A stretch of DNA of 64,000 nt from Candidatus Bathyarchaeota archaeon (lineage in GTDB: Archaea > Thermoproteota > Bathyarchaeia > Bathyarchaeales > Bathycorpusculaceae). Positions 48,359-63,153 of the stretch are shown here, one piece after another. Location of the stretch: positions 124,001 through 188,000 of the forward strand of contig JAOULW010000001.1 of assembly GCA_029881805.1 (NCBI GenBank), given 5' to 3'. The position numbers were made by a program, and so were the translations under genes. Positions within the stretch are counted from its first letter, which is position 1. Every line of letters starts with the position of its first letter. The notes under the pieces are model-generated. The model was given only the letters and a program-made list of their open reading frames with translations, ran no database searches and was not told the DNA's origin.

Positions 48359-48396
48359 AGGTAATTGAATGTTTGTGCAGTATGGAGTGGTTGCTG

Positions 48397-48840
48397 ATGC
48401 ATTTGGATGAAACAGATGTCAAAATATTGAAGTCGTTGACTTTTGACGCTAGACTGTCATCAAGACAAATAGCCGGGCAATGCAATGTCTCTGTCGGCAC
48501 TGTCTTATCGAGAATAAGAAAGATGGAGAAAGAAGGCGTATTAAAGGGCTATTCTGTGTTGCTGGATCACGAAAAGCTCGGGTACGAGTTGACGATTCTC
48601 ACGGAAATAACAGTTTCTAAGGGAAGGCTTTTGGAGATGGAAAACGAAATTGCAAGATATCCAAACGTGTGCAGCGTGTACGACGTTACAGGATTAACTG
48701 ATGCGGTCATCATTGCAAAGTTCAAAAATAGAGATGAACTAAGCAAGTTCACGAAACGCTTGTTAGCATTACCGTACGTGGAAAGAACAAATACTCACGT
48801 CGTATTAACGACAATAAAAGAGGATTTCCGCATAATCTAA
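48397..48840 (+). CDS. Lrp/AsnC family transcriptional regulator
   Basis: A 147-aa regulator. The N-terminal HTH reads LDETDVKILKSLTFDARLSS, RQIAGQCNVSVGTVLSRIRK, and EGVLKGYSVLLD; the C-terminal RAM ligand-binding domain has EITVSKGRLLEME, VCSVYDVTGLTDAVIIAKF and the end VVLTTIKEDFRI. The frame opens at 48373, but the ATG at 48397 has GGAGTGG seven bases upstream and gives the family N-terminus. Divergence from glnA suggests that it senses an amino acid such as glutamine and regulates nitrogen assimilation. Confidence 0.92.
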   Translation: MHLDETDVKILKSLTFDARLSSRQIAGQCNVSVGTVLSRIRKMEKEGVLKGYSVLLDHEKLGYELTILTEITVSKGRLLEMENEIARYPNVCSVYDVTGLTDAVIIAKFKNRDELSKFTKRLLALPYVERTNTHVVLTTIKEDFRII

Positions 48841-48914: not shown

Positions 48915-49202
48915 TCAAATTCCCAAAGCGGGGGTTGCCAAGCATGGCCAAAGGCGTAGCCCTGAGGCGGCTATCCCGCAGGGGTTCGTGGGTTCAAATC
49001 CCACCCCCCGCACCACCGAATTCGGGGCGTTCCCGGCCCCGCTTCTCGTTTCTGCTCCCTGCAGCCGCCCTATCGCTTCAATCAGGGCGTTCTCGGATAC
49101 CCTGCTGATGTTCAACCCCACCTGCCTAGCGGTTTTCAGGACTCCCCTGTCGATGTACAGGCAGGTCGATTTTCTTTCGCTCATGTTGCCATTCATCCCC
49201 AC
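48915..49202 (-). pseudogene. Probable int(N) remnant: RHH domain reading antisense through the tRNA
   Basis: A 95-codon frame. Residues 7-45 are a ribbon-helix-helix/CcdA-like domain (KSTCLYIDRGVLKTARQVGL, NISRVSENALIEAIGRLQG); then a linker; residues about 63-92 (VGFEPTNPCG, ASGLRLWPC) are the antisense translation of the tRNA-Leu, with a stop just past it. Archaeal SSV-type integrases often start with such an RHH segment and run through a tRNA-derived attP before the catalytic domain; integration splits the gene and leaves int(N) at the tRNA. That fits this frame, and no catalytic domain remains. The promoter/operator at 49219 suggests leaderless expression. An alternative is a stand-alone antitoxin gene that happens to overlap. 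Confidence 0.6.
48928..49012 (+). tRNA. tRNA-Leu (anticodon GAG), CCA encoded in the DNA
   Basis: Acceptor strands GCGGGGG (48928-48934) and CCCCCGC (49005-49011) pair fully, followed by A and an encoded CCA (49013-49015). The anticodon loop CTGAGGC closed by TAGCC/GGCTA gives anticodon GAG (leucine, CUC/CUU). A class II variable arm (TCCCGCAGGGG) and a perfect T arm (GTGGG-TTCAAAT-CCCAC) are present, and the D region starts TTGCCAAGC. No intron is seen. The GC-rich sequence that follows marks the edge of accessory DNA, and a minus-strand ORF reads through the gene. Confidence 0.96.
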
Positions 49203-49211
49203 ATGATGCCA

Positions 49212-49276
49212 TGCGCGCGGGGCTACTTATAGCCCCCTAAGGGAAAGGCCAGAGCGGTCTGCGGAGTAGGAATCAA
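49212..49276. repeat. Copy 1 of a 65-bp GC-rich promoter-like repeat
   Basis: Aligned with 54698-54764, this shares TGCGCG at the start, then CTTATAGCCCCCTAAGG, GCC-GAG-CGGTC with small gaps, and TAG-AATCA near the end. It is the upstream region of the RHH/int(N) frame. The second copy, 5.5 kb away, has no gene behind it. Confidence 0.65.
49219..49236 (-). promoter_or_regulatory. Operator overlapping the TATA box of the RHH/int(N) gene
   Basis: GGGGCTA (49219-49225) and TAGCCCC (49230-49236) are perfect inverted copies 4 bases apart. On the minus strand the centre reads TATAAG, a TATA box about 25 bp before the first ATG (49202), so the message would be nearly leaderless. RHH proteins commonly repress their own promoters through such short palindromes. 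Confidence 0.55.
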
Positions 49277-49404
49277 CAAAGCGATGACCTGTGCATGCTT
49301 GAAAGCGCGCGCCCAGGCTTCCTCCCTCAGCTGACATGTCTACGTCTGCGAAAGTTGCTGTTCTAAACTGTAGAATTAAAAGGCAGAGTTTCAGAATCTA
49401 GCAT
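49277..49404. other. Intergenic accessory DNA
   Basis: This short stretch moves from GC-rich to AT-rich composition and contains no recognisable gene. A weak TATA-like AATTAAAAGG lies near 49372 before the membrane-anchored protein. Confidence 0.35.
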
Positions 49405-50100
49405 GTGAGAAGAGATATGCAATTTTTGAGTTGGCTTACCAAAAACCCTAGACTGACTACTATTTGCATTTGTCTTGTTTTGCTCGTTCTAACGCCAATT
49501 TTCTACTGGACAATAATAGAAAGTCAAGAGGCACACGAGCTAGAGCCATCGATGATTCATTTCTTTCATTTCACAGAATTGCTTAGTAATGAGACTTTCA
49601 TGGACGTCTGGAACAAAACAAAGGATTTGGATGTTACGGCTGAATTTTCAAGGAATACCGACTATTCTGTTCTGGTCTACGCACACTATTATGCGTGTGG
49701 GGGGTTCTCCGGTGCTGAATGGTTTGTAGTTGCGTCAACTCTGGAGCCCGACAGCGAAGGAAATATCCACGAGCTAGTTCTGAGGCTTGACTATGAAAAC
49801 TCGACGCTCATAAAACCTTACCTACAGACTCACAGCTTCAATCTCACTTCTGTTGAAAACGGAACAAGGATAATAGAAGATTTCATGGCCCAAGACCCAT
49901 ATCAATACTGGTCCAACCCTAGAGAGGAAAACTTTCACGTTAATTATCCATTCTTGATTCTCTTCATTTTTCCAATCGACTACGGCATAACAGTTGTTTT
50001 GAACCTTAACACCGGGAAAGTTATGATAGCTGCTACGAGCGTCTGGATGGGGTATGGTTACCTAGTCTACCCAGAGAAAATATACGACGTAGGTTCTTAG
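49405..50100 (+). CDS. Membrane-anchored protein of unknown function
   Basis: A 231-aa protein with one N-terminal helix (LTTICICLVLLVLTPIFYW) and an outer domain rich in aromatic residues, with sequons (NET, NKT, NST, NLTS, NGTR). A second hydrophobic stretch near residues 182-197 (FLILFIFPIDYGITVVL) may be buried strand. The N-terminal GTG/ATG choice (49405 or 49414) is open. I recognise no family. It is followed by high-GC debris and two other membrane proteins on the same strand, so it may be cargo of the accessory region. Confidence 0.55.
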   Translation: MRRDMQFLSWLTKNPRLTTICICLVLLVLTPIFYWTIIESQEAHELEPSMIHFFHFTELLSNETFMDVWNKTKDLDVTAEFSRNTDYSVLVYAHYYACGGFSGAEWFVVASTLEPDSEGNIHELVLRLDYENSTLIKPYLQTHSFNLTSVENGTRIIEDFMAQDPYQYWSNPREENFHVNYPFLILFIFPIDYGITVVLNLNTGKVMIAATSVWMGYGYLVYPEKIYDVGS

Positions 50101-50158
50101 AGCAGAAACTGAAATCTTCGATGATTGAACCATAACCAGGGAGAACACCCGCTGGAAC

Positions 50159-50275
50159 TCATCTGCCTCTCCGCCAAGCCCCCAGCGACTCGAGCAGGAT
50201 CGCCTGTCCGCGAAGCGCGTCGCGCTCTTCCCCTGCGTTGAATAGATATCGCGACACACAAAGTCGCATATACAT
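50159..50275 (-). CDS. Mini-ORF A (38 aa) in GC-rich DNA, paralogue of mini-ORF B
   Basis: The frame reads MYMRLCVSRYLFNAGEERDA and then a Leu-rich, basic helix (GQAILLESLGAWRR). It shares RYLFN-x-EER and the upstream sequence with the plus-strand ORF at 50394, so the two diverge as an inverted pair. There is no good ribosome site. It may be a remnant of a longer high-GC gene and not a living one. The base composition differs sharply from the neighbouring chromosome. Confidence 0.35.
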   Translation of the reverse strand: MYMRLCVSRYLFNAGEERDALRGQAILLESLGAWRRGR

Positions 50276-50286
50276 CAGTTGGGGGT
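50238..50286. repeat. Left arm of a 49-bp imperfect inverted repeat
   Basis: Compared with the reverse complement of 50383-50431, about 36 of 49 positions agree, with no gaps: the outer TTGAATAGATA and the inner ATACATCAGT and GGGGT are nearly identical. The arms enclose 96 bp. Similarity extends outward (GCGCTCTT-CC on both sides), so the unit is either a MITE-like element or a diverged inverted duplication of one coding segment. Confidence 0.65.
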
Positions 50287-50382
50287 AGATATGTAGCGCC
50301 CGCAGACCGCAGCCTGCAGTGCCCCCTCATTACGGACAACCCTTCTGACCCTGAAAACCTGTCAAAACAGGCAACCATATGC

Positions 50383-50431
50383 ACCCCTGACTGATGTATG
50401 TGCAGCCTCGCGCCCCACGCTATCTATTCAA
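50383..50431. repeat. Right arm of the 49-bp imperfect inverted repeat
   Basis: Reverse-complement partner of 50238-50286. It contains the start of mini-ORF B. I see no target-site duplication and no transposase between or beside the arms. Confidence 0.65.
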
Positions 50432-50540
50432 TTATGAGGAAAGAGCGCTATGGGCGACAGCGACAAGGAAGGCCCTGGCCTGCATCGGGGTCAATCAACT
50501 CTGCTGGCTCCCGGGCGGACCGAAGGTTTACGGGTTGTAA
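50394..50540 (+). CDS. Mini-ORF B (48 aa) in GC-rich DNA, paralogue of mini-ORF A
   Basis: The frame starts MYVQPRAPRYLFNYEERALW, continues ATATRKALACIGVNQLCW and ends GGPKVYGL. The first 30 residues align with mini-ORF A (RYLFN, EER, a following Leu/Ala helix). The stop TAA is at 50538. The lack of a ribosome site and the GC-rich composition suggest imported and decaying DNA. No known family is recognised. Confidence 0.35.
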   Translation: MYVQPRAPRYLFNYEERALWATATRKALACIGVNQLCWLPGGPKVYGL

Positions 50541-50764
50541 TGATTTGCTTCATTAGGATGTTAAGCTACGAAACTTGTGTTTGCGATGTTGAGCGCGTGT
50601 ACTAGTGCGCAAAGTCAAATCCTTGTTGGACCATGTTGACAATTGTGGTGGGGAAAACGCGCTTTGCAGATTACTGCTTGTCTTCGGCTTTGTTGATTTT
50701 CTGATTATCCACAAGAAATAAGAATGGGTTTTCGTCCAAAGGTTAAATAGAGGTTAAAGTGTTT
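50541..50764. other. Intergenic stretch between accessory debris and a membrane protein gene
   Basis: GC content falls back to the chromosomal level. I see no coding sequence. AGAGGTTAAAG just before 50759 is a possible ribosome site for the next gene. Confidence 0.4.
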
Positions 50765-51808
50765 ATGAAAAAGGAAACTGTTTGGTTCATACCCTCTCTT
50801 GCGTTGGGCATTATTTGGTCGTTTCTTATTATGTATTTTTTTGACAGGGTTATAGGAGGCGGATTTTATGTCATAATTGTCTTTGTGGTATTTCCTCTTT
50901 GCATTGCATTATACGATATTCTGCAAAGAGGGAAGAAGAGCATTCAGATGACTTTTCTAGCAACTCTTATAGCATCGGGAGCTTTTCTTGGCGGATTAAA
51001 CCTCGGACTTTTTGAGTCCATGACCATATTAGAAGACAGCATAATCGACATATCAAACAGTGTTATTACACTTCACATCCGCAACACTGGGTTGTCCGAC
51101 ATACAAATAACAGAATTGACTTTCGTCAATATGGAATTCACCATTCGCCCATCAGACCTCAACCCCATTTACTTGCCTAGAGGAGCAGAGTCATATTTGC
51201 AAATCAATTATGCTGAAGAAAGGTTCTCATTGCACGATAAACTAGACTCAATAGGTGAACATTACAACTGGGAGAGAGACGACGGCCACTATACATCTAT
51301 CGTTGGCGCTACGCCACTTACATTTCACAATGGAAGCACATATTCAGTGACTTTCCACACAAACAGCTTATTCCATCACAGCTTTCCTTTGGAAGCAAGG
51401 CTTACGTCTGAAGAATCACTTGAATTATTTAAACAGTTCACTTTCAAAACAGATTCATATGTTGACATCACTCTCTATCTCAACAACACAGGAGCCACTG
51501 CATGCTATATCTATACAATTCAAATCGTAAATGTAACATTTCGTTTTAGACCTGCGCTTGCTGTCTGGATAGCGGAGGGAGAATACCCGCATTACTCCCC
51601 TGACTTAATTATAACAATATCCAGCGCACATGACAAAGGATTTGGCTATAAAATTTACGAAGGCTCATGGATGCACCAATACGAGATAACAGCCGAACCT
51701 ACACCAACTATATCCATGTTTCAAGAAAACGAGACCTACAAGCTTACATTTTTGACCATGGGAAATAAGTACTATGTATTCAACACAACCATAATAAGGT
51801 CACCTTGA
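50765..51808 (+). CDS. Membrane protein with N-terminal helices and a beta-rich outer domain
   Basis: A 347-aa protein. Three hydrophobic helices occupy residues 5-75 (FIPSLALGIIWSFLIMYFF and YVIIVFVVFPLCIALYDIL, then FLATLIASGAFLGGL), followed by an outer domain built of two similar beta units (VITLHIRNTGLSDIQITELTF and DITLYLNNTGATACYIYTI), the style of CARDB/DUF-type repeats. GTG 50759 or ATG 50765 may be the start; AGAGGT upstream favours the ATG. I do not recognise a family. It is followed by another membrane protein on the same strand. Confidence 0.6.
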   Translation: MKKETVWFIPSLALGIIWSFLIMYFFDRVIGGGFYVIIVFVVFPLCIALYDILQRGKKSIQMTFLATLIASGAFLGGLNLGLFESMTILEDSIIDISNSVITLHIRNTGLSDIQITELTFVNMEFTIRPSDLNPIYLPRGAESYLQINYAEERFSLHDKLDSIGEHYNWERDDGHYTSIVGATPLTFHNGSTYSVTFHTNSLFHHSFPLEARLTSEESLELFKQFTFKTDSYVDITLYLNNTGATACYIYTIQIVNVTFRFRPALAVWIAEGEYPHYSPDLIITISSAHDKGFGYKIYEGSWMHQYEITAEPTPTISMFQENETYKLTFLTMGNKYYVFNTTIIRSP

Positions 51809-51909
51809 AATCACGCGGGAAGGGAAAAATTGGCTTGGCGCCCGCTCTGAGATGTCCTTAGAGTTCAATTTAAGTAAGCGAAAAGTGATATGTGCTTGTG
51901 TGAGTTATC

Positions 51910-52599
51910 ATGTTTGGTCGTCTTGCGAAGGACCGAGTAGAATTGCTAGTTGTATTTTTTAGTGTGGTAGGTTTAGTGCTTGTTGTGTTAGGGGCTGTTG
52001 TAGAAATGCCTTACACTGTGAAGGAGACGTTCAACAACTATCCGTACAATCCTGTAAGTTTATGGGCGAACGAGACCATAACGCTGCGGCCAGGCGATTC
52101 CCGAATCTACAATTTAGATATCATAAACATGAACAACAGCATCATATACGTTCTAGTGGAAAGAACCACTAGCCCCATAATCATGGAAATAGATGGACCT
52201 TCTGGCGTGGGGTTTTATAACGTGAGTGAAAGAACCATTAACAGACAACATATATGGTACGCATCGCCAGTTAACCCGTTCGAATTTTACTGGACACCGA
52301 CATATAATACAGGATGGGATTTCGTTTTCTACAATCCATTTGACGTGACAGCCAACGTTACGCTTACAATACTCGATTACCGGTACAATGTAGAATGGCA
52401 GCGGAACGTGACCCACTACAGTCCGCCACTCGACAGAACATTCGCATATGGCGGAATCATCCTTGTGGCGATCGCTGTAATACCAACAGCATATGACCTC
52501 TACAAAACCAGAAAAGAAAAACAGAAAAAGGCGTTCTGGCAAGGAGAAGCGTACGCACAGAAAATGCGCGAACAAGAAGAAAAAGGAAAACTCAAGTAA
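51910..52599 (+). CDS. Two-helix membrane protein with an extracellular beta domain
   Basis: A 229-aa protein with helices near residues 10-31 (VELLVVFFSVVGLVLVVLGA) and 180-200 (YGGIILVAIAVIPTAYDLY) flanking an outer domain with sequons, and a charged cytoplasmic tail rich in Lys and Glu (KTRKEKQKKAF... QEEKGK). The layout resembles archaeal envelope proteins with an emp24-like or GOLD-like beta domain between helices, but this is only a topology comparison. It follows the 50765 gene by about 100 bp. Function is unknown. Confidence 0.6.
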   Translation: MFGRLAKDRVELLVVFFSVVGLVLVVLGAVVEMPYTVKETFNNYPYNPVSLWANETITLRPGDSRIYNLDIINMNNSIIYVLVERTTSPIIMEIDGPSGVGFYNVSERTINRQHIWYASPVNPFEFYWTPTYNTGWDFVFYNPFDVTANVTLTILDYRYNVEWQRNVTHYSPPLDRTFAYGGIILVAIAVIPTAYDLYKTRKEKQKKAFWQGEAYAQKMREQEEKGKLK

Positions 52600-52627
52600 T
52601 CATACCTAGCGCGCGTACTTTTGTGGT

Positions 52628-52783
52628 CTATGCGATGTTTCTGAGTATCGTCTCGGCCCCCTCGGACGCCCTGCCCCCGAGGTCCCCTATCCACGCGGGG
52701 TTGAAGTAGTTCCGCATGAACACGCTCGAGCTTATCAATGTCAAAGCTAGTGCTACTTTCCAATTTTTTAGTTTTTCAAACAA
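52628..52783 (-). CDS. Tiny membrane protein (51 aa), third gene of a mini-operon
   Basis: Frame from TTG 52783: a short basic start (FEKLKNWK), one hydrophobic helix (VALALTLISSSVFM), then RNYFNPAWIGDLGGRASEGA and an amphipathic end. AAAGGAAAC lies just upstream as a ribosome site. The 3' half is much richer in GC than the 5' half, so it may be a junction between chromosomal and imported sequence. It lies downstream of the zinc-ribbon mini-gene on the same strand. Family unknown. Confidence 0.45.
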   Translation of the reverse strand: MFEKLKNWKVALALTLISSSVFMRNYFNPAWIGDLGGRASEGAETILRNIA

Positions 52784-52836
52784 ACTGTTTCCTTTCTACT
52801 ATCGATCGCTGTTTGAATGGAACTTGCTTGCCTATT

Positions 52837-52998
52837 TCACTTTTTTGGATGATAACGCGGGAAGGAGCAATCAGCACAGATCTCTTTATTCGGTCCGCTA
52901 TCTTTGTGACCCATCTTACAGGGCAGATATTCTCCATTACTCGTTCTAGCTTGATAGTTGCATGGCTCACAACATCTCTTGGATTTCTCACTCGCCAT
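52837..52998 (-). CDS. Small zinc-ribbon-like protein (53 aa)
   Basis: Frame from ATG 52998: KRCCEPCNYQART, then YLPCKMGHKDSGPNK and ICADCSFPRYHPKK. Cysteines and His fall as CC-x2-C, C-x3-H, C-x2-C, enough for one or two zinc sites. The ATG overlaps the end of the upstream charged ORF by 11 bp, a sign of a compact operon. Neither frame in the other direction shows such a pattern. Known families I can recall do not match exactly. Confidence 0.55.
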   Translation of the reverse strand: MASEKSKRCCEPCNYQARTSNGEYLPCKMGHKDSGPNKEICADCSFPRYHPKK

Positions 52999-53132
52999 CT
53001 AAAACTTCTTTGAATTTCCTCGCGCGCTCAGACACTCGGATTTTTTCATCGCTTTTGTCCTTTTCTTTTCTAGCCTTCTCAGCTCTATCTCTTTCAGCCT
53101 TTTCAGCGCGATCAATCTCTTTTCTGCTCATT
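52988..53132 (-). pseudogene. Charged coiled-coil mini-gene with a one-base frameshift
   Basis: From ATG 53132, preceded by AGGGGATT, the frame runs MSRKEIDRAEK and then stops because of an A5 run at about 53100-53104 (written as T5 on the plus strand). With one base removed it continues AERDRAEKARKEKDKSDEKI to VLDGE, a repeat-like Lys/Glu/Arg helix in phase with the first part (RAEKAERDRAEKA). Either the base is an assembly error in a homopolymer or the gene is decayed. A TTG at 53116 could still express the last 42 residues. A TATA-like GAGTTTAAATCC lies upstream. Confidence 0.5.
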
Positions 53133-53250
53133 CAATCCCCTGATTCTGTATCTGTAGAAGAGGATTTAAACTCGTCGTTATCTGTCAATTTCTAAATCAG
53201 CACGCGCTGAGTGAGTGTGAGCGAGTAAGAGTGGTTGAGAGCGTTTAGTT

Positions 53251-53289
53251 TTTTGGGTTTGGGGTTCAAATTCCACCCAACCAACACCA
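53251..53289 (+). repeat. tRNA-3'-half-like remnant A
   Basis: TTGGGTTTGGGGTTCAAATT followed by CCACCCAACCAACACCA contains a T-loop core (GGGGTTCAAATTCC) flanked by inverted TTGGGT/ACCCAA and ends in ACACCA, like a tRNA tail. The 5' half of a tRNA cannot be folded. It lies 55 bp before the DUF457-like gene. Confidence 0.4.
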
Positions 53290-53344
53290 TCTTATCGCAA
53301 ATAATAAGAACTGAAGCACAGCAGGCTTCAAGTAGGTGAACACC

Positions 53345-53770
53345 ATGTTCATTGGGCACTTTGCTGTAGGTCTGGCTTTGAAAAGAGTGGGCAAGGCTCT
53401 CTCGTTGGGGCTATTGTTTATTGCCGTTCAACTCCCTGACCTGATCTATGGAGTCACCCTCCTGACTGGCGTGGAGAAAATCAACATCGTTGCAGGCACC
53501 AATCCACTCACTTCGGCTGAATACATCTTCTTTCCGTACTCCCACAGTTTAGTAGCCATTCTGCTCTGGGCAGGACTGGCTGCCCTCATATTCCTCATAG
53601 CCCCACTCAAGTCAAGCCTGCCCAAAAGCAAAACCGCACTAGTCATGGCAACGGCCGTACTGTCACATTTCACCTTTGACGTCATAGTCCACAACCTTGA
53701 CATAGATCTGCTCGGCAACGGCGCCTACAAAGTCGGCTTAGGCTTATGGAACTTTCCCCCACCTCCATAA
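53345..53770 (+). CDS. Membrane-bound metal-dependent hydrolase-like protein (YdjM/DUF457 type), short
   Basis: A 141-aa protein with MFIGHFAVGLALKR at the N-terminus, a buried acidic pair in QLPDLIYG, PYSHSLVAIL and SHFTFDVIVHNLD, the His/Asp pattern of the YdjM/DUF457 membrane hydrolase family, and about four helices. The family usually continues with one or two more helices; here it ends at GLWNFPPPP, suggesting truncation. The ATG at 53345 has TAGGTGA at ideal distance, so it replaces the GTG at 53336. It follows tRNA-like remnant A. Confidence 0.75.
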   Translation: MFIGHFAVGLALKRVGKALSLGLLFIAVQLPDLIYGVTLLTGVEKINIVAGTNPLTSAEYIFFPYSHSLVAILLWAGLAALIFLIAPLKSSLPKSKTALVMATAVLSHFTFDVIVHNLDIDLLGNGAYKVGLGLWNFPPPP

Positions 53771-53884
53771 GGAAAAGTGAAAAAGCGTAAACTTTTCATG
53801 TTTTTCTCGAACTAAATTCAACATTAAGAAGTAAGTTGCGACTTAAGGATAGCCTGCTTCTATTAGCTGGCGGAGCGAGCTTCT

Positions 53885-54607
53885 TCATTTGAGATTGGAA
53901 TCCTTGGCACATCGGAAACCCACGTTAAAATCCACCCAGTTCGCTGGAAGTGCATTTCTGTAGTATACCGTGCTGCAATACGGCCCCGAGTGCCAGCCAC
54001 CTCCACGGATCACCCGAAATTTTCCAGACCTAGGCCCTTGTGGATTCGCCGAAGGACTTGATGAGTAGTAGTTCCGATCGTAAAAGTCCAAGACCCACTC
54101 GACAACGTTTCCTTGCATATCATAAAGACCGAAACCGTTTGGCGGATAGCTACCAACCGCGACCGGACCCCCCTTGCCTGACTTTGTGTAGTTCCCACGG
54201 GAGGGATTAAGCGTGTTACCGTTAGGGTAGTTCATTCCCGCTAGTCCTCCCCTCGCAGCATATTCCCACTCGGCTTCGGTGGGAAGTCTCTTGCCACACC
54301 ACAGGGCATATTTGACGGCGTCGCTCCAACTTACTCCAATCACCGGATGGTTCTGGTAGTCTAGGCCACACCGGAAACCTTCCATATTCCAGAACTCTGG
54401 TAGTCGGTGTCCCGTTACTTCGCAGAACTTCAGGTATTTTGTGTTGGTTACCTCGTACTTGTCCATATAAAAGGTGTCAATGTATACTTTATGAACGGGA
54501 TTGTGATCCCCCTCTGAATCCGAGCCCATAAGGAACTCACCGCCGGGAATCAATGCAAGCTCCTCCGTAATATTGGTCATTTTCCGTTTCTTCTTTGAAT
54601 TACCCAT
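53885..54607 (-). CDS. Formylglycine-generating enzyme (SUMF1/EgtB) family protein
   Basis: A 240-aa FGE-sulfatase fold protein. Signatures are IPGGEFLMGSD, MDKYEVTNTKYLKF, HPVIGVSWSDAVKYALWCGK, RLPTEAEWEYAARGG, NGFGLYDMQGNVVEW and RGGGWHSGPY with VGFRCAKD at the end. Real FGEs oxidise a Cys in sulfatases to formylglycine using two cysteines late in the domain; here candidate cysteines are in PYCSTVYYRN and GFRCAKD, so the spacing does not match clearly. No sulfatase is in the window. It may be another member of this broad family (EgtB-like, PvdO-like or a retroelement-associated protein). It lies near duplicated and tRNA-like debris. Confidence 0.82.
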   Translation of the reverse strand: MGNSKKKRKMTNITEELALIPGGEFLMGSDSEGDHNPVHKVYIDTFYMDKYEVTNTKYLKFCEVTGHRLPEFWNMEGFRCGLDYQNHPVIGVSWSDAVKYALWCGKRLPTEAEWEYAARGGLAGMNYPNGNTLNPSRGNYTKSGKGGPVAVGSYPPNGFGLYDMQGNVVEWVLDFYDRNYYSSSPSANPQGPRSGKFRVIRGGGWHSGPYCSTVYYRNALPANWVDFNVGFRCAKDSNLK

Positions 54608-54697
54608 GAAATCGACCTCAGCAAAACTCTCTAGTTTACAATCTTTAAATAACTAACGCCACGCGGATAACTTTTTTGAACAACTACCACTCTTAAA

Positions 54698-54764
54698 TGC
54701 GCGGGCGGCTGCTTATAGCCCCCTAAGGAAAAAGCCGAGGCGGTCAGCTTGCATAGAATCACAA
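54698..54764. repeat. Copy 2 of the 65-bp GC-rich promoter-like repeat
   Basis: Matches 49212-49276: TGCGCG, then GCTTATAGCCCCCTAAGG, an AAGCCGAGGCGGTC segment, and TAGAATCA near the end. Its palindrome is imperfect (GCGGCTG versus TAGCCCC), and no start codon follows at the expected distance on the minus strand, so it looks like a promoter whose RHH gene has been lost. Confidence 0.65.
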
Positions 54765-55056
54765 CACGCGCATAACCATATTTGATGTGAGACAATGGGA
54801 AATTGTAAAAATCATCTGTGAAAATTCAGTTAAAAATCCTTTTTTTCCAAAAACTGAAAAGTACAGCGCTCAGCAATAGAAAGAATGTTGCGTCAACAAC
54901 GTTTCTTGCAACTTCTTAACTCACCACCACAGAATTCTATTTGTGATGAGTGAACTCCTCCCGAGTGGTCGATCGCTCACAAGTCTTGTATTCAAGATCA
55001 CCTTAGTCTAACTCGGTAAGTCAAAAAACACGAAAAGTCGATTAATCGTTAGGACT

Positions 55057-55106
55057 TCGGGAGATATCGCCACTTGGGCTGGGTCCAAATCCCAGCTACC
55101 CCACCA
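55057..55106 (+). repeat. tRNA-3'-half-like remnant B
   Basis: Contains GGGAGATATCGCCACTTGG, then a perfect T arm CTGGG-TCCAAAT-CCCAG (55079-55095), a 7-base acceptor-like strand CTACCCC and ACCA. The complementary 5' acceptor GGGGTAG is not found within 150 bp upstream, so it is a partial or rearranged tRNA. Confidence 0.5.
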
Positions 55107-55179
55107 CAATAAACCCCGCCGGACAGTTACTTCCGCAAATCATAGAAAAGGAATGCTCTGCTAAATGCGCCCGCAATAG

Positions 55180-55851
55180 CTAGTGAGTTTTAATGAACAG
55201 CTCCATCGGGAATGGCTGACCGTGCCCAGGGTACACGGTGTTGATTTGTAAGCGTTTCAGTTTTTCGATACTGTTATGCGCTGCAACTTTGTCATCTATA
55301 ATGGACCAGACCTCTGGTTTGGCTACATTGGCCAGCAGATCACCGCAGAACAGGTCGCCGCTGGCTGTCAGGATGCCTATTGAACCCTTTGAGTGCCCTG
55401 GAATATTAAGAACTTTAGCGTCGAATCCATATCCAGAGAAATCGTATCCCTCGTCGATATATAAATCGGGTTTAAACCTGTCCGATTTACTTAACCTGAA
55501 GAACAACCTAAAAATTATTCTGATGAGAATGTTCTGTTTGTTTCGATTCCATAACATGTCTCCGCGTTCGACCATTCCGGAATCGTCCTTGTGCATGGCT
55601 ATTTCTATACCGAATTTTTGCCGAAGGTACCCAGCATTACCGCAGTGGTCAAAATCACCATGAGTTAGTACGATCAGCTTGAGATTTCCAGGCAGGCAGC
55701 CCACGCTAACAAGTTCTTTTTCGATCGTGCCGCGTTTGTTGGTCCTCCCCGCATCGATCAGGATAAATCCATGGCTTGTTCTGACAAGGTAGCAATTGAC
55801 AGAGACATTAAAAACAAAAGGCATAGCGATAGTGTTAATCTCCAAAGTCAT
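55180..55851 (-). CDS. MBL-fold metallo-hydrolase
   Basis: A 223-aa metallo-beta-lactamase fold protein. The metal motif is LTHGDFDHCG, a form of HxHxDH in which the second His is Asp, a variant found in many MBL hydrolases. Later ligands are in IPGHSKGSIG, FCGDLL and YPGHGQPF. Family members hydrolyse thioesters, lactones or similar; the substrate is not defined here. It is flanked by tRNA-like remnants B and C, on the strand opposite to them, and has no obvious operon partner. Confidence 0.85.
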   Translation of the reverse strand: MTLEINTIAMPFVFNVSVNCYLVRTSHGFILIDAGRTNKRGTIEKELVSVGCLPGNLKLIVLTHGDFDHCGNAGYLRQKFGIEIAMHKDDSGMVERGDMLWNRNKQNILIRIIFRLFFRLSKSDRFKPDLYIDEGYDFSGYGFDAKVLNIPGHSKGSIGILTASGDLFCGDLLANVAKPEVWSIIDDKVAAHNSIEKLKRLQINTVYPGHGQPFPMELFIKTH

Positions 55852-55966
55852 TTGAGTCTCCTGTGTTCAAGGCGGTTATAACAGTGGGCGCATATTCAGT
55901 CTAAGTGTAAATCGAGATTTAAGGCTTGTTTGGCATGAACTTTCAAACAGAAAATGGGGGTTTGCT

Positions 55967-56000
55967 GGTGATATCGCCCCGGAGTAGTGGGTTCAAATCG
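55967..56000 (+). repeat. tRNA-3'-half-like remnant C
   Basis: GGTGATATCGCCCCGGAGTA is followed by GTGGGTTCAAATC, which is identical over 13 bases to the T-arm start of the tRNA-Leu at 48928. The 3' side of the stem is missing. It lies about 30 bp before the ArsC-like start. Confidence 0.4.
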
Positions 56001-56031
56001 ATTATTGCGCTTAGTTTGAGTGGTTGAGAGG

Positions 56032-56433
56032 ATGAAAGTTCTCTTTGTCTGTGCAGAAAATGCTGAAAGAAGTCAAATGGCAGAAGCCTTTGCCAACCAT
56101 TACGGTCAAGGGAAGATCGAGGCAACAAGTGCAGGCACTATGCCAAAGAGTGAGGTAAACCCTTTGGTTGCTGAAGCAATGCAAGAGAAGGGAATTGATG
56201 TGTCAAAGAATAGGCCAAGGCTCGTGACCAACAAGATGGTTCAAGAAGCAGATATGATAATTGTGATGGGATGCAACGCCCAAGGATTCTGTCCTGCGCC
56301 TCTGCTAAACAAAGTCGTGGATTGGGGAATTGAAGACCCAAAAGACAAACCAATAGAGAAAGTAAGAGAAATCAGAGACGAGATAGAAAGAAAAGTGAAG
56401 CAACTGATTGAAGAAAGCGAAACCAGAACTTAG
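56032..56433 (+). CDS. Low-molecular-weight phosphatase/arsenate reductase-like protein
   Basis: A 133-aa protein of the LMW-PTP/ArsC fold: FVCAENAERSQMAEAFANHY gives the P-loop (C-x2-N-x2-R-S), VSKNRPRLVT the substrate strand, and the catalytic Asp is in DWGIEDPKD. In thioredoxin-type arsenate reductases two more cysteines are required; Cys in MGCNAQGFCPA (two residues) may fill that role. It could reduce arsenate or remove phosphate from protein tyrosine. ATG 56032, after GAGTGG, is chosen over GTG 56020. It partly overlaps a longer reading of the peptidase gene, but not with the start preferred there. Confidence 0.82.
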   Translation: MKVLFVCAENAERSQMAEAFANHYGQGKIEATSAGTMPKSEVNPLVAEAMQEKGIDVSKNRPRLVTNKMVQEADMIIVMGCNAQGFCPAPLLNKVVDWGIEDPKDKPIEKVREIRDEIERKVKQLIEESETRT

Positions 56434-56491
56434 AGTTCCGTTGTCGGGAGAAATCTCCAACGAGTGTTCCGTTCAAATCTTACCTCCCCAT

Positions 56492-56502
56492 AGCCTTTAT
56501 AA
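56492..56502 (+). promoter_or_regulatory. TATA box deciding the start of the M28 peptidase
   Basis: CTTTATAAATT lies about 45 bp before GTG 56543, inside the longer open frame. A transcript starting 25 bp later could not include the upstream ATG at 56408, so the GTG start is supported. Confidence 0.55.
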
Positions 56503-56542
56503 ATTGTTAGGAACAATTGGTAGGAAAAGGAGAGCGTCTAGA

Positions 56543-57814
56543 GTGAAGTTTTTTGACGCCGGTTCAGCGTATCATTTCATGGAAAGGCTTGTCAAAGAAA
56601 TTGGAAACCGAGAATCAGGGACAGACTCAGAACGTCGAGCAGCACAACAAATCAAGGCATGGTTTGAAGAGTTTGAACTTGCCAACGTAAGAATGGAAGA
56701 GTTTGAGGTTCAGACGAGCCGCATTCTAAAAGAAGAGGTTTCGCTTCCAGACGGCACACAACTTGAATGCGCAGCAGTTGGAAATTCTCTATCAACTCCA
56801 CCACAAGGCATCGAAGGAGAAGTGGTCATGTTGGAGTCAACGTCTTCGGGAGCGCTAAAAAACATAGAGAATAAAATCGCTGCTTTAAGCGTAGTGCTCT
56901 ATGAAAAAGATTTCTGCAAAGTCATGAAAGCTGGGCCTCAAGCTTTGATCTATCCTTCGCGAACCCCATTGGCGCCTACTATCTACCGTTCTATCAGGGC
57001 TGAATATGTTGAAAAGCAAAACATCCCAGCCGTATCCATGGCTCACGATGATGTACTGAGCGTGTTGAAGGGCCCGAAGAGGCTCAAGATAATTACAGAA
57101 GTGCAGAGCGTAACCGCCAAGAGCCAAAACGTTCTGGGCGAAGTGCCAGGATCTCTCGAAGATGAAGATATACTTGTTGGTGGACACTATGACACTGTCC
57201 GAAGCGTTATGGGTGCGCATGATAATGCCGCTGGAACCGCAGTGATGCTCGAATTGGCAAGAATTTTCGCGCATGAAAAACTGAATCGCAAGCTGAGGAT
57301 AGTAGCATTTGGCTCTGAGGAACTTGGACTGCGCGGTTCCTTTCATCACGCTGAAAACCCTGATAACACCAAGAATCTCACGCTTTGCTTTGACTTCGAT
57401 GTCCATGGCATATTGCTGGGGACACTGAACGCCGTTGTTCTGGGACCAGAGGAGTTGAGGTCACTCCTGCGCTTCACAGCCAAAGAGCTTGGAATACCTC
57501 TCCAAGTTACCAACGAGTTGGGAATGGGAGGTTCAGACCACATGCCTCTAGCCTTTTATGGTGTTCCTTCTGTTATGCTATCACGCGCAGGAGGAGCCGC
57601 CCAAATAATGCACACAGAACTTGAAGACCTCCGTTGGTGCGGTTCAGACGCTTTCATCTCCATAGGTAAGTTGAGCCAAACTCTTTTGGAGCGTTTGCTA
57701 AGGGCTGAAGAGTTGCCATTTGAAAAAAAGGTTCCAAACGACATCACTAAAGCGATTGAGAAGAGATTCGAAGACTCAGGGATCAAAAAGAAAGCAAAAG
57801 AAGGAGTAGAGTAA
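56543..57814 (+). CDS. M28 family aminopeptidase
   Basis: A 423-aa dinuclear zinc peptidase. Metal ligands appear in VGGHYDTV, GAHDNAAGTAVML, SEELGLRGS (with the general-base Glu), CFDFDVHG and the late His in MHTELEDL. A protease-associated insert of about 110 residues lies between the N-terminus and the catalytic domain. The frame is open from 56408, overlapping the phosphatase-like gene, but those 45 codons do not resemble the family, and GTG 56543 has AAAGGAG and a TATA box (CTTTATAAATT) in front, so I use it. No signal peptide is seen, so it is probably cytoplasmic. Confidence 0.88.
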   Translation: MKFFDAGSAYHFMERLVKEIGNRESGTDSERRAAQQIKAWFEEFELANVRMEEFEVQTSRILKEEVSLPDGTQLECAAVGNSLSTPPQGIEGEVVMLESTSSGALKNIENKIAALSVVLYEKDFCKVMKAGPQALIYPSRTPLAPTIYRSIRAEYVEKQNIPAVSMAHDDVLSVLKGPKRLKIITEVQSVTAKSQNVLGEVPGSLEDEDILVGGHYDTVRSVMGAHDNAAGTAVMLELARIFAHEKLNRKLRIVAFGSEELGLRGSFHHAENPDNTKNLTLCFDFDVHGILLGTLNAVVLGPEELRSLLRFTAKELGIPLQVTNELGMGGSDHMPLAFYGVPSVMLSRAGGAAQIMHTELEDLRWCGSDAFISIGKLSQTLLERLLRAEELPFEKKVPNDITKAIEKRFEDSGIKKKAKEGVE

Positions 57815-57830
57815 GGGCATAGAAAAAGAA

Positions 57831-57885
57831 GGGTCTGCGGGAGACCTCTCCACTTACAGTGGTGTTCGAGTCCCACCTCCAACAA
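57831..57885 (+). repeat. tRNA-3'-half-like remnant D
   Basis: GGGAGACCTCTCCACTTACA, then GTGG-TGTTCGAGTC-CCAC (57859-57876), then CTCCAACA. The T-arm-like hairpin and tail resemble remnants B and F. The 5' half of a tRNA is not present. Confidence 0.4.
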
Positions 57886-57985
57886 TTTTTGGATACTTTC
57901 TACTACATCCTGAGGGCTATTTGGTCGACAACGGAAACTTTATCTTGAGTCAAAGACAATAAGAGCCTTCAATGGGTGATGACTT

Positions 57986-58141
57986 TTGCCTAAAATGTGC
58001 CCATTTGCATTTTCCACTGGAGTACCTGGGAAACGAGTAGTTGGCAAAGGAGTGCCAAGGGACTGCCAAGAAGATAAGTGTGCGTGGTGGACAGGCACAG
58101 AATGTGCTGTCTTGAGGGTTGCCAGAAACTTGGGAAAATAA
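57986..58141 (+). CDS. Cys-rich small protein (51 aa)
   Basis: From TTG 57986, with GGTGATG just upstream, the frame reads MPKMCPFAFSTGVPGKRVVG, then RDCQEDKCAWWTGTECAVLR and ends VARNLGK. Four cysteines in C-x21-C-x4-C-x7-C, with the strongly conserved look of CxxxxCAWW, suggest a metal- or iron-sulfur-binding site. It is clearly coding by composition but too short for length filters. The family is not known to me. It sits between remnant D and remnant E. Confidence 0.65.
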   Translation: MPKMCPFAFSTGVPGKRVVGKGVPRDCQEDKCAWWTGTECAVLRVARNLGK

Positions 58142-58408
58142 CCTTAATGTTGCTTGCATGCAGCTGACGAAATAAGGCAATCGAAGAAAGGGAGTTGCGA
58201 GAGATATCGTGGCTTAGGTTTACTGGAAGCTTCACAAGATTAGCCTTGAGTAGAAAATTACTACGTCTTCTCTTGCGTTTTTTGAAGAGTTTGGCTAGGT
58301 CAATGCCGATTACGCATTGAAAAATATCTCGCCTAAAATGGAATCCATTTCCTTCGCCTCAATAGACACGATAAAGGTTTTGAATCAAACCATCCGAATA
58401 ACTGTCAG
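58142..58408. other. Intergenic stretch with weak tRNA-like remnant E
   Basis: Around 58191-58230 the text GGAGTTGCGAGAGATATCGTGG resembles the AGATATCG core of remnants B and C but lacks a T arm. The rest is AT-rich with a possible TATA (CGATAAAGG) near 58370. No ORF of note. Confidence 0.35.
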
Positions 58409-59152
58409 ATGATTATCATGAAATTGACATACAACGACATATTCAAGCACTCAGATAGGTTGAACCCTATATCCGCCAAAACCTTACTGTCAGCAGGCAG
58501 ACTTGCCCAATTCAGACCGGAAAAGACTCTTCTAGACTTAGGTAGCGGCAAAGGTTTTCCCTCCTTACTTTGGGCAAGTACATTTGGCATCAAGATTGAA
58601 GGGTTCGACCTTAACAGAAAATATGTCAACTATGCCAACTCTTATGCCAAACTGCTCAACCTAGAACATATAGCAAAATATATGTGCCGGGATGTTAGGC
58701 GGCTGAAACCTAGTCACAAATATGATATAATAGCTTCTCTAGGAATCGGCATAACCGAAGTCTATGGCACTGCAAAAACAGCACTGGAAAACTTTAAGCT
58801 AATGACAAATCCAGGCGGCTTCTTAATGTTAGGAGAACCAGTTTGGCTGGTCAGACCGGTTCCTAAGACAGTGCAGAAAGCTTTAGAGACGCCTGAAGAA
58901 AATCTTTGCGCCAAGGTCGAGATGGAACACGTATTGGAGGACTGCGACTTTCAGGTGCAAGGATCCTTTGTATCAACCAAAGAAGATTGGGAATACTACA
59001 TAAGACCAGTACATGTTGCCATGCAAGAGATAATGAAAAGTCAACCAGAGTTGTCAAGCGAAAGTCAAGCAATAATGAAAGGCTTCCAGGCTGAACATAG
59101 GGCAGCTGGAAAACATTGGGATATGATTCTGTGGGTGGCCAAATCTAGTTGA
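58409..59152 (+). CDS. Class I SAM-dependent methyltransferase
   Basis: A 247-aa methyltransferase: motif I LLDLGSGKGFPSLLWAS, acidic strand FDLNRKYVNYA, motif II/III IIASLGIGITEVYG and NPGGFLMLGEPVW. The C-terminal third has aromatic segments (EDWEYYIRPVHV) that would shape a small-molecule pocket. The pattern resembles UbiE/Cyclopropane-type enzymes, and the substrate is unknown. Start ATG 58409 or 58418; neither has a good ribosome site, so a leaderless message is likely. It belongs to the accessory block. Confidence 0.82.
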   Translation: MIIMKLTYNDIFKHSDRLNPISAKTLLSAGRLAQFRPEKTLLDLGSGKGFPSLLWASTFGIKIEGFDLNRKYVNYANSYAKLLNLEHIAKYMCRDVRRLKPSHKYDIIASLGIGITEVYGTAKTALENFKLMTNPGGFLMLGEPVWLVRPVPKTVQKALETPEENLCAKVEMEHVLEDCDFQVQGSFVSTKEDWEYYIRPVHVAMQEIMKSQPELSSESQAIMKGFQAEHRAAGKHWDMILWVAKSS

Positions 59153-59466
59153 CGACGCTGCTGAAAAGAAATTATTACCTACCCCTTGCTTCTAGACAAA
59201 CACAAACAGAAAATGGATTTTCAGGCTAGATCAAGCTTATTGTTTCGATTTTCCATTTTCCTGCTTCAGAGTTACATGACTTGACAATAGTACAGGAGTT
59301 CGAGCGTGGATTTATTATGAGTCTCTCCAGCGTCTATGCTAATCTAAGCCCCTTTCGAAAAATCTTAATCAACTATTGTTAATACTGTTATCAGTGCACG
59401 CTTACACATTCTTGTGATTACTCGAGTTCTGGCGGGCTTCACGCGTGTTTATTTCTCTTTTTTGCT
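59153..59466. other. Intergenic stretch without a recognisable gene
   Basis: A 314-bp region between two converging genes (58409 on the plus strand, 59467 on the minus strand). Several T-rich tracts could act as terminators for both. I see no coding sequence, hairpin of note or repeat. Confidence 0.4.
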
Positions 59467-59931
59467 TTAGTCTTTTGGCACTTCAGTTCTTTCGAGCGCC
59501 CTCTTTGCTAGAGTTTCTCCAAGTTTTTTGCAGATTTTCTGATTCTCTTCGCTGGGTTCTCCTTGGGAGACTAGGCCGTCAGCTACTTTCTCCAGTCTGA
59601 AGGAGGAAATCATCTTTTCCAAGCTCAACAGAGCAGAGTTGCTGGCTCCGCCGCCTGAAGTGAAGGCTGCACTTGGTTTTCCAGCAACTTTTTCTCTTAT
59701 GCTCAAAGCTTTGTCAAAGAAGTCCTTAATGAGTCCAGCCATATAACTGAAGTAGTTTGGAGATCCGAAGGCTACAGCGTCACAAGAGACAAAGTCGTGA
59801 ACAGTTGCATAGTCAACACGCTTCACTTTAGCTGAGGCTCCCTCAACACTTTCAACGCCCTGAGCAATCCAGTTTGCTAGAGTCTCAGTTCTACCAGACC
59901 TGGAATAATACAAAACTAACACTTCAACCAT
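59467..59931 (-). CDS. Flavodoxin family protein
   Basis: A 154-aa flavodoxin-fold protein with the FMN phosphate loop VLYYSRSGRTETLANWIAQG, SCDAVAFGSPNYFSYMAG and FTSGGGASNSALLSLE, the WrbA-like pattern. It probably shuttles electrons or reduces quinones with FMN. It stands alone on the minus strand. Another flavodoxin-like protein is encoded at 60185, so the accessory block carries two flavoproteins. Confidence 0.88.
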   Translation of the reverse strand: MVEVLVLYYSRSGRTETLANWIAQGVESVEGASAKVKRVDYATVHDFVSCDAVAFGSPNYFSYMAGLIKDFFDKALSIREKVAGKPSAAFTSGGGASNSALLSLEKMISSFRLEKVADGLVSQGEPSEENQKICKKLGETLAKRALERTEVPKD

Positions 59932-60060
59932 GTCAAATCTCCCACATCATACTTTACCTCACTGCACAATATAATTCTAATCCCAAACCTGGCGGGCTCC
60001 CTGTAAGAACTTTCAAAAAAGCTGAGGCTTTGTATGCTTGCAAAAAGAGGCAATTGTGCA

Positions 60061-60106
60061 GGTAATATCTCACGGAGTGGTCGGTTCAAATTCACCCCAC
60101 CTCACA
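60061..60106 (+). repeat. tRNA-3'-half-like remnant F
   Basis: GGTAATATCTCACGGAGTGG, then TCGGTTCAAATTCA and CCCCACCTCACA, again a T-loop core (GGTTCAAATTC) with a partial stem (GTGG/CCAC) and a tail ending CACA. It lies 80 bp before the flavoprotein at 60185. Confidence 0.4.
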
Positions 60107-60184
60107 GGCCGACTGAACCTCTATAACTATTCAAAAAGATTATATTGAACATGCATCGTTTTTTCAACTGCTTGAGGAATAGTT

Positions 60185-60898
60185 TTGATCAAAGTAGTAG
60201 CCATTAATGGAAGCGCCAAAATGGAGAAGGGTAACACTGCACTGGTTCTGGCGCCCTTTATCGACGGCATGAAGAAAGCTGGGGCGTCTGTTGAACTATT
60301 TTATGCAAAGCGCCTTAATGTTAAACCTTGTACAGCTGAGTTTTATTGTTGGAATAAGAAGCCAGGTCAATGTCACATTGACGACAATATGCAGATGCTT
60401 TATCCCAAGCTACGCAGGGCCGGCATACTCGTGTTGGCCACACCTGTCTATATTCCTTTGCCGGGGGAGATGCAGAATCTGATTAATAGGCTGTGTCCTC
60501 TTTTTGAGCCTATTTTGGAGTTCCGAGAGGGTCGCACACGTGCTAGGTTTCATGCTGGAGTTAATATTCGCAAGATCGTCTTGGCGTCGACATGTGGTTG
60601 GTGGGAGATGGGTAATTTTGGCACTGTGCTTCGGATTGCTGAGGAGTTTGCAAAGGATGTGAATGCTGAATTTGCTGGTGCCGTCCTGCGTCCTCACGCT
60701 TATCTAATGCGTGGGAACGGGGAAAAAGTGAAGAATGTGACAGACGCGCTGAGGCAAGTTGGCTACGAGCTTGTGAGGAAAGGGCGAATGCCTAAGAAGC
60801 TCCTCGAGGTTACTGGTCAACCTCTCATTTCTGAAGAAGAGTACAGACGCAGTCTTAATGACGACTATGAAAAGGTGAAGAACAAGGAAAAAAGCTAG
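60185..60898 (+). CDS. NADPH-dependent FMN reductase/flavodoxin-fold protein
   Basis: A 237-aa protein. FMN-binding VVAINGSAKMEKGNTALVLA starts it, and ATPVYIPLPGEMQNLINRL is the second flavin contact. Between them CTAEFYCWNKKPGQC resembles the Cys-rich loop of iron-sulfur flavoproteins, but the spacing differs from the usual C-x2-C-x2-C, so cluster binding is uncertain. TTG at 60185 fits the N-terminus. It ends 4 bp into the convergent peptidase gene at 60895. Confidence 0.85.
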   Translation: MIKVVAINGSAKMEKGNTALVLAPFIDGMKKAGASVELFYAKRLNVKPCTAEFYCWNKKPGQCHIDDNMQMLYPKLRRAGILVLATPVYIPLPGEMQNLINRLCPLFEPILEFREGRTRARFHAGVNIRKIVLASTCGWWEMGNFGTVLRIAEEFAKDVNAEFAGAVLRPHAYLMRGNGEKVKNVTDALRQVGYELVRKGRMPKKLLEVTGQPLISEEEYRRSLNDDYEKVKNKEKS

Positions 60899-61821
60899 CC
60901 TTTTTGTTTACTGAATCTTTTTGTTTCAACATCTTTGATGAACTTGACTAGGGTGCTGAAGTATGTTTCTTGGTCATCATACATGGAAAGATGGCTTCCT
61001 TTTTCGCAAACGACAACGCGTGAATCAGGTATAAGTTCGCCCATCCTTTGGATGTCTTCCATGCGCATTGTGTCATAACGTCCTACTATGAGGAGCGTTG
61101 GAACTTTGATGTTTTTAATTTCATTCCATCTATTCCAATCTTTAAATGTGCCTGTGATAACGAACTCGTTCGGACCTTGCATAGTATTATACACGTCAGC
61201 ATTCAAATTCCTAAAGGCTCGCTGAAAAGGTTCAGGCCAAGGACTGAGGCGGCAAACATACTTCGAGTAAACTTGGCTTAGTAAGACATTTTGATATTCT
61301 TGTGCTCCATATTCTTCTTTAGCTTCGTACTTCTCCATAATCTTTCTAGTTTCTTGTGGAAGTTTCTGACGGAGCTCGTTAATATATTTAACATACGAGG
61401 CGATGCTTGCCGTCATATTCGATATGACCAAAGCTTTGATGTGCCTTTGATATTTCAGAACATATTCAATTCCTAACATTCCGCCCCACGATTGTCCATA
61501 CAAATAGAAGTTGTTTAAACCAAGAGTAACTCTCACTTGTTCTACTTCCTCCCGAAAACGGTCAATAGTCCACAGAGTCTTATCTTTTGGCTGGTCGGAA
61601 TAGGCAGATCCAAGCTGGTCGTAGTAGTAAAATTCAATTCCCGCCTGTGGCAAGAAATCTTCGAAGCATTCAAAGTATTCATGAGTGGCGCCAGGTCCTC
61701 CGTGTAGCGTAAGCATTTTTGTGTTGCTATTGCCTATTTTTTTCGTCCAAACATTATACTTACCGTCAACATGAATTATCTTAACACCGCCAGTTTTTAC
61801 TTCTCCATGAAAATTTTTCAT
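60895..61821 (-). CDS. pip: Proline iminopeptidase-like alpha/beta hydrolase
   Basis: A 308-aa alpha/beta hydrolase with TLHGGPGATHEYFECF (oxyanion region), the nucleophile Ser in GQSWGGMLGIEY, the Asp in VGRYDTMR and His in CEKGSHLSMYDD. The alignment feel is proline iminopeptidase (removes N-terminal proline). The protein overlaps the 3' end of the flavoprotein gene by 4 bp in convergent orientation. A TATA box is not obvious upstream. Confidence 0.9.
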   Translation of the reverse strand: MKNFHGEVKTGGVKIIHVDGKYNVWTKKIGNSNTKMLTLHGGPGATHEYFECFEDFLPQAGIEFYYYDQLGSAYSDQPKDKTLWTIDRFREEVEQVRVTLGLNNFYLYGQSWGGMLGIEYVLKYQRHIKALVISNMTASIASYVKYINELRQKLPQETRKIMEKYEAKEEYGAQEYQNVLLSQVYSKYVCRLSPWPEPFQRAFRNLNADVYNTMQGPNEFVITGTFKDWNRWNEIKNIKVPTLLIVGRYDTMRMEDIQRMGELIPDSRVVVCEKGSHLSMYDDQETYFSTLVKFIKDVETKRFSKQKG

Positions 61822-61925
61822 AACACCACAATACTATTGTTTCACATGAAAATTAATCCTTTTCCATACATTCTCGTGAAGCGCGTGCTTACGAGCTTAG
61901 TGTGAAATGTCTTGTATTGAATCGA

Positions 61926-62042
61926 ATTTATAAGGAAGTGTGTATATTATGGGGGGAGTAACGTTCTGTCGTCGACGAACAATAAGAAAAACACAGCAAC
62001 GTTACGCACCACGGTCAACAACAGAAAAAGGAGTGATGTAAA
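61926..62042 (+). promoter_or_regulatory. Alba promoter and structured leader
   Basis: ATTTATAAGG (61926-61935) is a TATA box about 105 bp before the Alba start. The leader then has inverted copies GTAACGTT (61958-61965) and AACGTTAC (61998-62005) that can form an 8-bp stem around an inner palindrome TCGTCGACGA (61969-61978). GGAGTGATG precedes the TTG start. The stem may steer translation of this abundant protein or bind Alba itself. Confidence 0.5.
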
Positions 62043-62330: not shown

Positions 62331-62356
62331 GAATGTCAGCAAGAAACAATTTCTCT

Positions 62357-63133: not shown

Positions 63134-63153
63134 TGCATCACAAACGCGTTTAC

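Follow-up and report, generated by a model that had tools for sequence, protein, structure and literature searches.

The window analysed here, a stretch of 64,000 nucleotides from a Candidatus Bathyarchaeota archaeon, is part of a 376-kb contig in a 2.2-Mb draft genome of 39 contigs. Around its tRNA-Leu(GAG) gene the following features were located, int(N) and int(C) denoting the N- and C-terminal pieces of a split integrase:

48373..48840, plus strand: gene of an Lrp/AsnC regulator, conserved host flank (Pfam, synteny)
48915..49202, minus strand: candidate int(N), an RHH domain with a tRNA-antisense tail, 95 aa, likely start ATG 49184
48928..49015, plus strand: tRNA-Leu(GAG), CCA encoded, probable rebuilt attB/attL
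49053..49184, minus strand: RHH (CcdA-like) domain (Pfam, home-made profile, AlphaFold)
49203..49259, minus strand: promoter block, conserved also in the tRNA-His copies of this RHH clade (homologue comparison)
49219..49236, strandless: perfect dyad GGGGCTA-CTTA-TAGCCCC around the TATA box of the candidate int(N) (sequence)

The tRNA-Leu(GAG) is entirely covered by the antisense 95-aa frame, which enters it from the tRNA 3' end and stops 13 bp past the tRNA 5' end, leaving an intact tRNA at the presumed attL; the first-pass annotation, made from the sequence alone, had described exactly this arrangement of an RHH frame running antisense over the whole tRNA and ending just beyond it. The N-terminal part of the frame matches Pfam CcdA (RHH) with 27.1 bits and an E value of 5.6e-6 (cut-off 22.4 bits), and our home-made RHH profile recognizes it with an iE of 1.6e-21, the rest of the 376-kb contig giving nothing better than 4.3. 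Neither PHROGs nor NCBIfam contained a match for the frame, and searching PDB with a profile of the RHH alignment was likewise negative. An AlphaFold model based on the alignment of homologues shows confident helices at residues 13–22 and 26–47 and a low-confidence tRNA-encoded tail. As judged from the homologues, translation probably starts at the ATG at 49184 and not at the GTG at 49202.

The TATA-like box of the frame on the minus strand lies within the perfect 7-bp dyad, and the GGGGCTA/TAGCCCC palindrome that had been reported around it was found to be exact. A 7-bp perfect dyad within 110 nt upstream is reached in 4 of 100 shuffles and is not rare by itself. The promoter block of about 57 bp is kept across the tRNA-His/Leu clade, with recognizable homology stopping shortly upstream of it, and the perfect dyad is present in the window copy only, most homologues having just GGGC-N8-GCCC around the TATA box. 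The earlier description of an intact autorepressor site is thereby not established, the promoter block being conserved but the perfect palindrome private to the window copy, and 49219–49236 might at best be regarded as a putative autorepressor site. As the RHH protein F55 of SSV1 is known to repress the SSV1 integrase operon (PMC8371274, PMC4158269), self-repression of the int(N)/integrase promoter by the RHH fragment is plausible by analogy.

In order to compare the locus with empty sites, 60 relatives were searched with the neighbouring Lrp gene. Of the own genome, contigs C10 and C22 were covered in full by base-by-base scans. In 11 relatives tRNA-Leu(GAG) is located downstream of the Lrp gene, 10 of them being identified by the first search and the last, G036, having a tRNA-Leu with an intron-like insertion that was overlooked by ARAGORN. 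An RHH frame at this tRNA-Leu is absent from all 11, so that the finding which the first-pass annotation had named as pointing to a stable host antitoxin gene, the frame beside tRNA-Leu in relatives without accessory DNA, was not made at this site. The comparison with sister genomes that it had suggested gave a near-empty site in G014, whose DNA is 76% identical to the window from glnA to exactly 49015 and matches again at 63155 in the DUF47 gene, with only 330 bp between the end of the tRNA-side match and this gene. Thus, the window contains about 14.1 kb of extra DNA beginning at the tRNA 3' end. The same two flanks are about 1 kb apart in G036, separated by cobalt-transport-like genes (named by eye from the sequence). 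The window tRNA-Leu encodes its CCA, which is absent in 8 of the 11 relatives at the same locus, and this would fit an element as the source of its 3' half.

The insert and its far flank contain the following features:

49016..63154, strandless: 14.1-kb insert relative to G014 (DNA comparison)
49405..50100, plus strand: cargo ORF of 231 aa, no Pfam match, 70% identical copy in the own genome (C20) near another integrase
50759..51808, plus strand: cargo ORF of 349 aa, no family above cut-off
51910..52599, plus strand: cargo ORF of 229 aa, its end convergent with int(C)
52640..52822, minus strand: int(C) pseudogene, catalytic-tyrosine region (SVFMRNYFNPAWIGDL) retained, two stops, other motifs gone
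53255..53289, plus strand: putative degenerate attR, T-arm/3' end of tRNA-Leu with CCA (GGGTTTGGGGTTCAAATTCCACCCAACCAACACCA)
55080..55106, plus strand: further degenerate tRNA 3' end (att remnant)
55987..55999, plus strand: further T-arm remnant
57859..57880, plus strand: further T-arm remnant
60080..60105, plus strand: further tRNA 3' end remnant
63154..63822, minus strand: DUF47/PhoU-like gene, opposite host flank, near tRNA-Leu in G014 and G036

The int(C) end of the element, which had not been obvious at first and for which a search within 49–61 kb had been proposed, was found in decayed form at 52640–52822 on the minus strand. A profile built from 21 int(C) proteins detects this region with an iE of 2.3e-7 as its sole match, the next one in the 376 kb having 5.6, and tblastn with the intact integrase of relative G030 against the contig aligns 52634–52771 on the minus strand (41% identity over 46 aa, E 1.2e-6). 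The remnant retains FMRNYFNPAWIGDL around the catalytic tyrosine including NYFNP, the upstream motifs are missing and the fragment itself is below Pfam detection; it is located on the strand and side expected for a split integrase. No intact integrase gene is present in the insert, only this remnant. At a distance of 433 bp beyond it, 53255–53289 is the top match of the contig to the tRNA-Leu 3' end outside of tRNA genes, with a score matched by none of 2000 simulated regions. The suspected repeat of the tRNA 3' end would thus be a degenerate and not an exact one, and the 376-kb contig contains no exact attR, only degenerate copies. Between int(C) and this putative attR there is about 230 bp too little room for a complete int(C), and the intervening stretch shows no integrase match. 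Contig-wide, 11 non-tRNA matches to the tRNA-Leu 3' end were obtained, of which five lie within the insert and on the correct strand (0.21 expected), a portion amounting to 1.9% of the search space (P ~1e-6). Because 53255–53289 is followed by four weaker tRNA 3' ends, likewise degenerate, the 14-kb insert looks as though elements had integrated at this tRNA several times in succession, the latest being nearest to tRNA-Leu. RHH remnants beside the older att remnants were not found.

As a side observation, the 229-aa ORF (L210, L211) is present in three copies in the own genome and in none of the 60 relatives, the L211 copy being located just downstream of a tRNA-Val. A pattern search of the genome for the tRNA-Leu 3' end retrieved only a second tRNA-Leu(CAG), on C16. 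On this contig (L107, about 2 kb) an isolated tRNA 3' end (GGGGTCCCACCCCCCGCACCA) lies about 1.3 kb downstream of the tRNA-Leu(CAG), and the flank following it resembles the DNA following tRNA-Leu(GAG) in G002 (L053).

To take a wider look at the RHH frame we collected its homologues. In the own genome and the 60 relatives (61 genomes) RHH frames enter tRNA-His, Leu, Gly, Thr, Arg, Pro, Ala, Ser, Val and Gln, in nearly all cases antisense. Of 50 RHH loci retrieved from public genomes, 29 overlap a predicted tRNA, the orientation being antisense in 26 and sense in 3, with two further copies at tRNA-Leu(GAG); close relatives are mostly found in Bathyarchaeota MAGs. A chance antisense frame at tRNA-Leu was ruled out as an explanation, since RHH recurs at about 30 tRNA loci. 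In a class-wide search RHH matches were obtained in 81 of 257 genomes and five frames of 356–394 aa represent whole RHH-att-recombinase genes. Intact proteins of this architecture were observed in G030 (364 aa), G023 (383 aa), G197, G154 and G228. The G030 protein exceeds the Pfam cut-offs both for CcdA (22.9 against 22.4) and for Phage_integr_3 (27.2 against 27.0); one catalytic subtype is also above the PF00589 cut-off and one member above that of a SAM-like domain. No intact integrase with the window's own RHH clade was found. Scans of viral contigs yielded nothing with the integrase or the A2 RHH alignment, and with the A1 RHH alignment a single locus cut off by its contig end.

Complete split pairs are present in three relatives. 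In G039 the int(N) (3974–3729, minus strand) is located at tRNA-Pro and the int(C) (7839–6961, minus strand) begins at 7803–7843, a 41-bp exact repeat of positions 35–75 of this tRNA. G001 has a pair at tRNA-Ala with a 43-bp exact repeat 13 kb away where int(C) begins, and G036 an antisense RHH int(N) at tRNA-Glu, again with a 43-bp exact repeat at the int(C) start. In these pairs the RHH frame is directly seen to form the N-terminal part of an integrase that is split at att, and the N-terminus of this wider group of integrases is, as predicted from the sequences, an RHH domain. Together with the intact fusions they bear out the original suggestion that the window carries the int(N) footprint of an SSV-type integrase.

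The RHH of the window is closest to copies at tRNA-His. In other genomes no int(C) was detected near these within the flank examined (up to 9 kb), and the tRNA-His paralogue of the own genome is accompanied, at a distance of 2 kb, by a decayed int(C) belonging to a second subtype, so that int(N) and int(C) partners may have been exchanged. An intact int(N) together with a decayed int(C) is thus seen at two tRNAs of the own genome, tRNA-Leu and tRNA-His. Several genomes are syntenic on the host side of the shared tRNA-His site but have unrelated DNA on the element side, an indication of repeated insertion. The RHH core of the clade is under purifying selection, with pairwise dN/dS values of 0.09–0.47, so that a retained solo function is conceivable. 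On the own contig C22 (75.1–77 kb; L013/L003) tRNA-His has the RHH int(N) at its 3' side, and we also observed that the gene of a 472-aa tyrosine recombinase reaches to within about 43 bp of its 5' side; at another locus (L002) 29 bp separate the end of a similar recombinase from the tRNA-like gene that follows.

Taken together we regard 48915–49202 on the minus strand as the int(N) of an SSV-type ('suicidal') tyrosine integrase with an RHH N-terminus that was split on insertion and whose int(C) has decayed about 3.5 kb away, a reading to which we give a probability of about 0.87. The near-empty site in G014 and the decayed int(C) likewise agree with the initial proposal that the frame marks one end of an integrated element. 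In the free element a single gene would have encoded the RHH domain, an att-encoded linker and the catalytic domain, and the att inside this gene would have recombined with the 3' half of tRNA-Leu. The element would thereby have been inserted and the tRNA rebuilt with the element's own 3' half, CCA included. int(N) and its promoter would have stayed beside tRNA-Leu, while int(C), stranded at the far end (~53.3 kb) and left without promoter or start, would have decayed. Further integrations at the same tRNA-Leu would have piled up to 63.15 kb. That int(N) and 52640–52822 were once one gene, and the order of the integration events, we infer from the arrangement of the locus. The present role of the RHH fragment would most likely be the repression of its own (integrase) promoter.

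It is highly improbable that the frame is a stand-alone host antitoxin or regulator gene of the CcdA/CopG type that abuts tRNA-Leu and whose antisense tail is open by chance, tRNA antisense strands being often stop-free. The dN/dS values of the RHH core (0.09–0.47), the conserved promoter block and the tRNA-His homologues in other genomes that have no int(C) within the examined flank of up to 9 kb could all be accommodated by such a gene, but the frame is missing at tRNA-Leu in 11 of 11 syntenic relatives and neither CcdB nor another recognized toxin is found among the neighbours (Lrp/AsnC, the tRNA and ORFs without a Pfam toxin match), for which reasons it was rejected. A host gene also does not account for RHH frames entering many different tRNAs, with 29 of 50 loci overlapping a predicted one, for RHH being the N-terminus of intact integrases or for element-side flanks that vary between genomes at the shared tRNA-His site.

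Compatible with the split integrase but unlikely in our opinion is that a true int(N), having lost its int(C), is now a functional solo gene acting as a repressor of related integrases or in superinfection immunity. The contrast between intact int(N) and decayed int(C) at tRNA-Leu and tRNA-His of the own genome would be explained in this way, as would the conserved promoter and the low dN/dS, but the same signals are expected of a fragment of recent origin in a clade that evolves within mobile elements, and a 45-codon domain stays stop-free far longer than one of 280 codons. Moreover, no orthologous pair of RHH copies derived from one shared insertion was found among those compared. We are similarly sceptical that the int(N) was part of a larger element whose true attR is located elsewhere, in which case the remnant at 52.64–52.82 kb would be derived from a different element inserted at this tRNA. 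The presence of several tRNA 3'-end remnants within the insert and the occurrence of one RHH clade with two int(C) subtypes in the own genome point in this direction, yet neither integrase profile finds a second int(C) match in the 376-kb contig, and the order, strand and spacing of the features agree with a single element of 4.3 kb.

The split-integrase mechanism as such is already known (PMC8371274). As in the suicidal integrases of the SSV and pT26-2 types (PF16795; PMC8371274), att lies within an integrase gene, insertion divides this gene into int(N) and int(C), the former runs antisense into the tRNA 3' half, the tRNA is rebuilt and the intact homologues described here have the PF16795 catalytic domain, but the N-terminal domain is a CcdA-like RHH. 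The text of this review contains neither 'ribbon' nor 'CopG' and mentions no RHH domain in integrases, and we found no papers on RHH-type suicidal integrases in the literature searched, which is not a proof of their absence. With the CcdA antitoxin and SSV1 F55 the fragment shares the RHH domain, and the F55 repression of the SSV1 integrase operon is the plausible analogue noted above, but here RHH is part of the integrase itself and has no CcdB-like partner. In contrast to the pNOB8-type, where the gene stays intact on insertion, the insert of the window holds only an int(C) remnant. Target switching has been described as confined to tRNAs within one arm class (the long-arm/short-arm rule, PMC8371274), and the proximity of the tRNA-Leu copy to the tRNA-His copies crosses this rule. 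What appears to be new is the RHH N-terminus, the use of both tRNA halves and a tRNA-Leu member nearest to tRNA-His members.

The use of both halves is seen in three 5'-half insertions with int(N) in sense orientation, located at tRNA-Met (L244, G008:C9; repeat of tRNA positions 1–43), tRNA-Lys (L151, G049:C24; 1–42) and tRNA-Val (L146, G046:C25; 5–28). Targeting of the tRNA 5' half has been called unique to the pTN3-like suicidal integrases (PMC8371274). These three members resemble the latter, unlike the window copy at the 3' half, and one RHH/int(C) family thus targets either half. Tandem elements at tRNA-Ala were observed in G154 (L241, G154:C4:97000-115000, at 4265–5311 and 14176–14395), where an int(N) is located at the tRNA and a whole RHH-att-integrase gene 9.9 kb away with a 46-bp exact copy of tRNA-Ala positions 33–78; at this tandem junction an intact 'suicidal' integrase gene is restored. 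Suicidal integrases are specific to archaea and their survival has been called paradoxical (PMC8371274). If true, tandem insertion regenerating the enzyme would help to explain their escape.

The locus leads to a widespread subfamily with a repressor-type DNA-binding N-terminus that targets many tRNAs, and the family offers concrete tests of regulation, target switching and escape. We would only tentatively propose, and with more doubt than confidence, a self-repressing family of RHH suicidal integrases in Bathyarchaeia and other archaea in which the stub is a working solo repressor or immunity factor and tandem insertion regenerates the enzyme. 'CcdA-family antitoxin' genes beside archaeal tRNAs may often be integrase stubs. 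A 337-aa RHH-recombinase fusion with no obvious tRNA-derived segment was also found on a contig binned as bacterial (L201; Bipolaricaulota MAG contig JAGXLQ010000070.1, 4740–5783), which may be a misbinned archaeal contig. Finally, a sister class of split integrase was observed on the own contig C24 (L144, 148–522 and 10499–11431) and at L154 and L157, with a cysteine-pair N-terminal domain (VCxVC...GYLQH) in place of RHH; its members are located at the 5' half of tRNA-Thr, tRNA-Val and tRNA-Arg and have 40-bp repeats.
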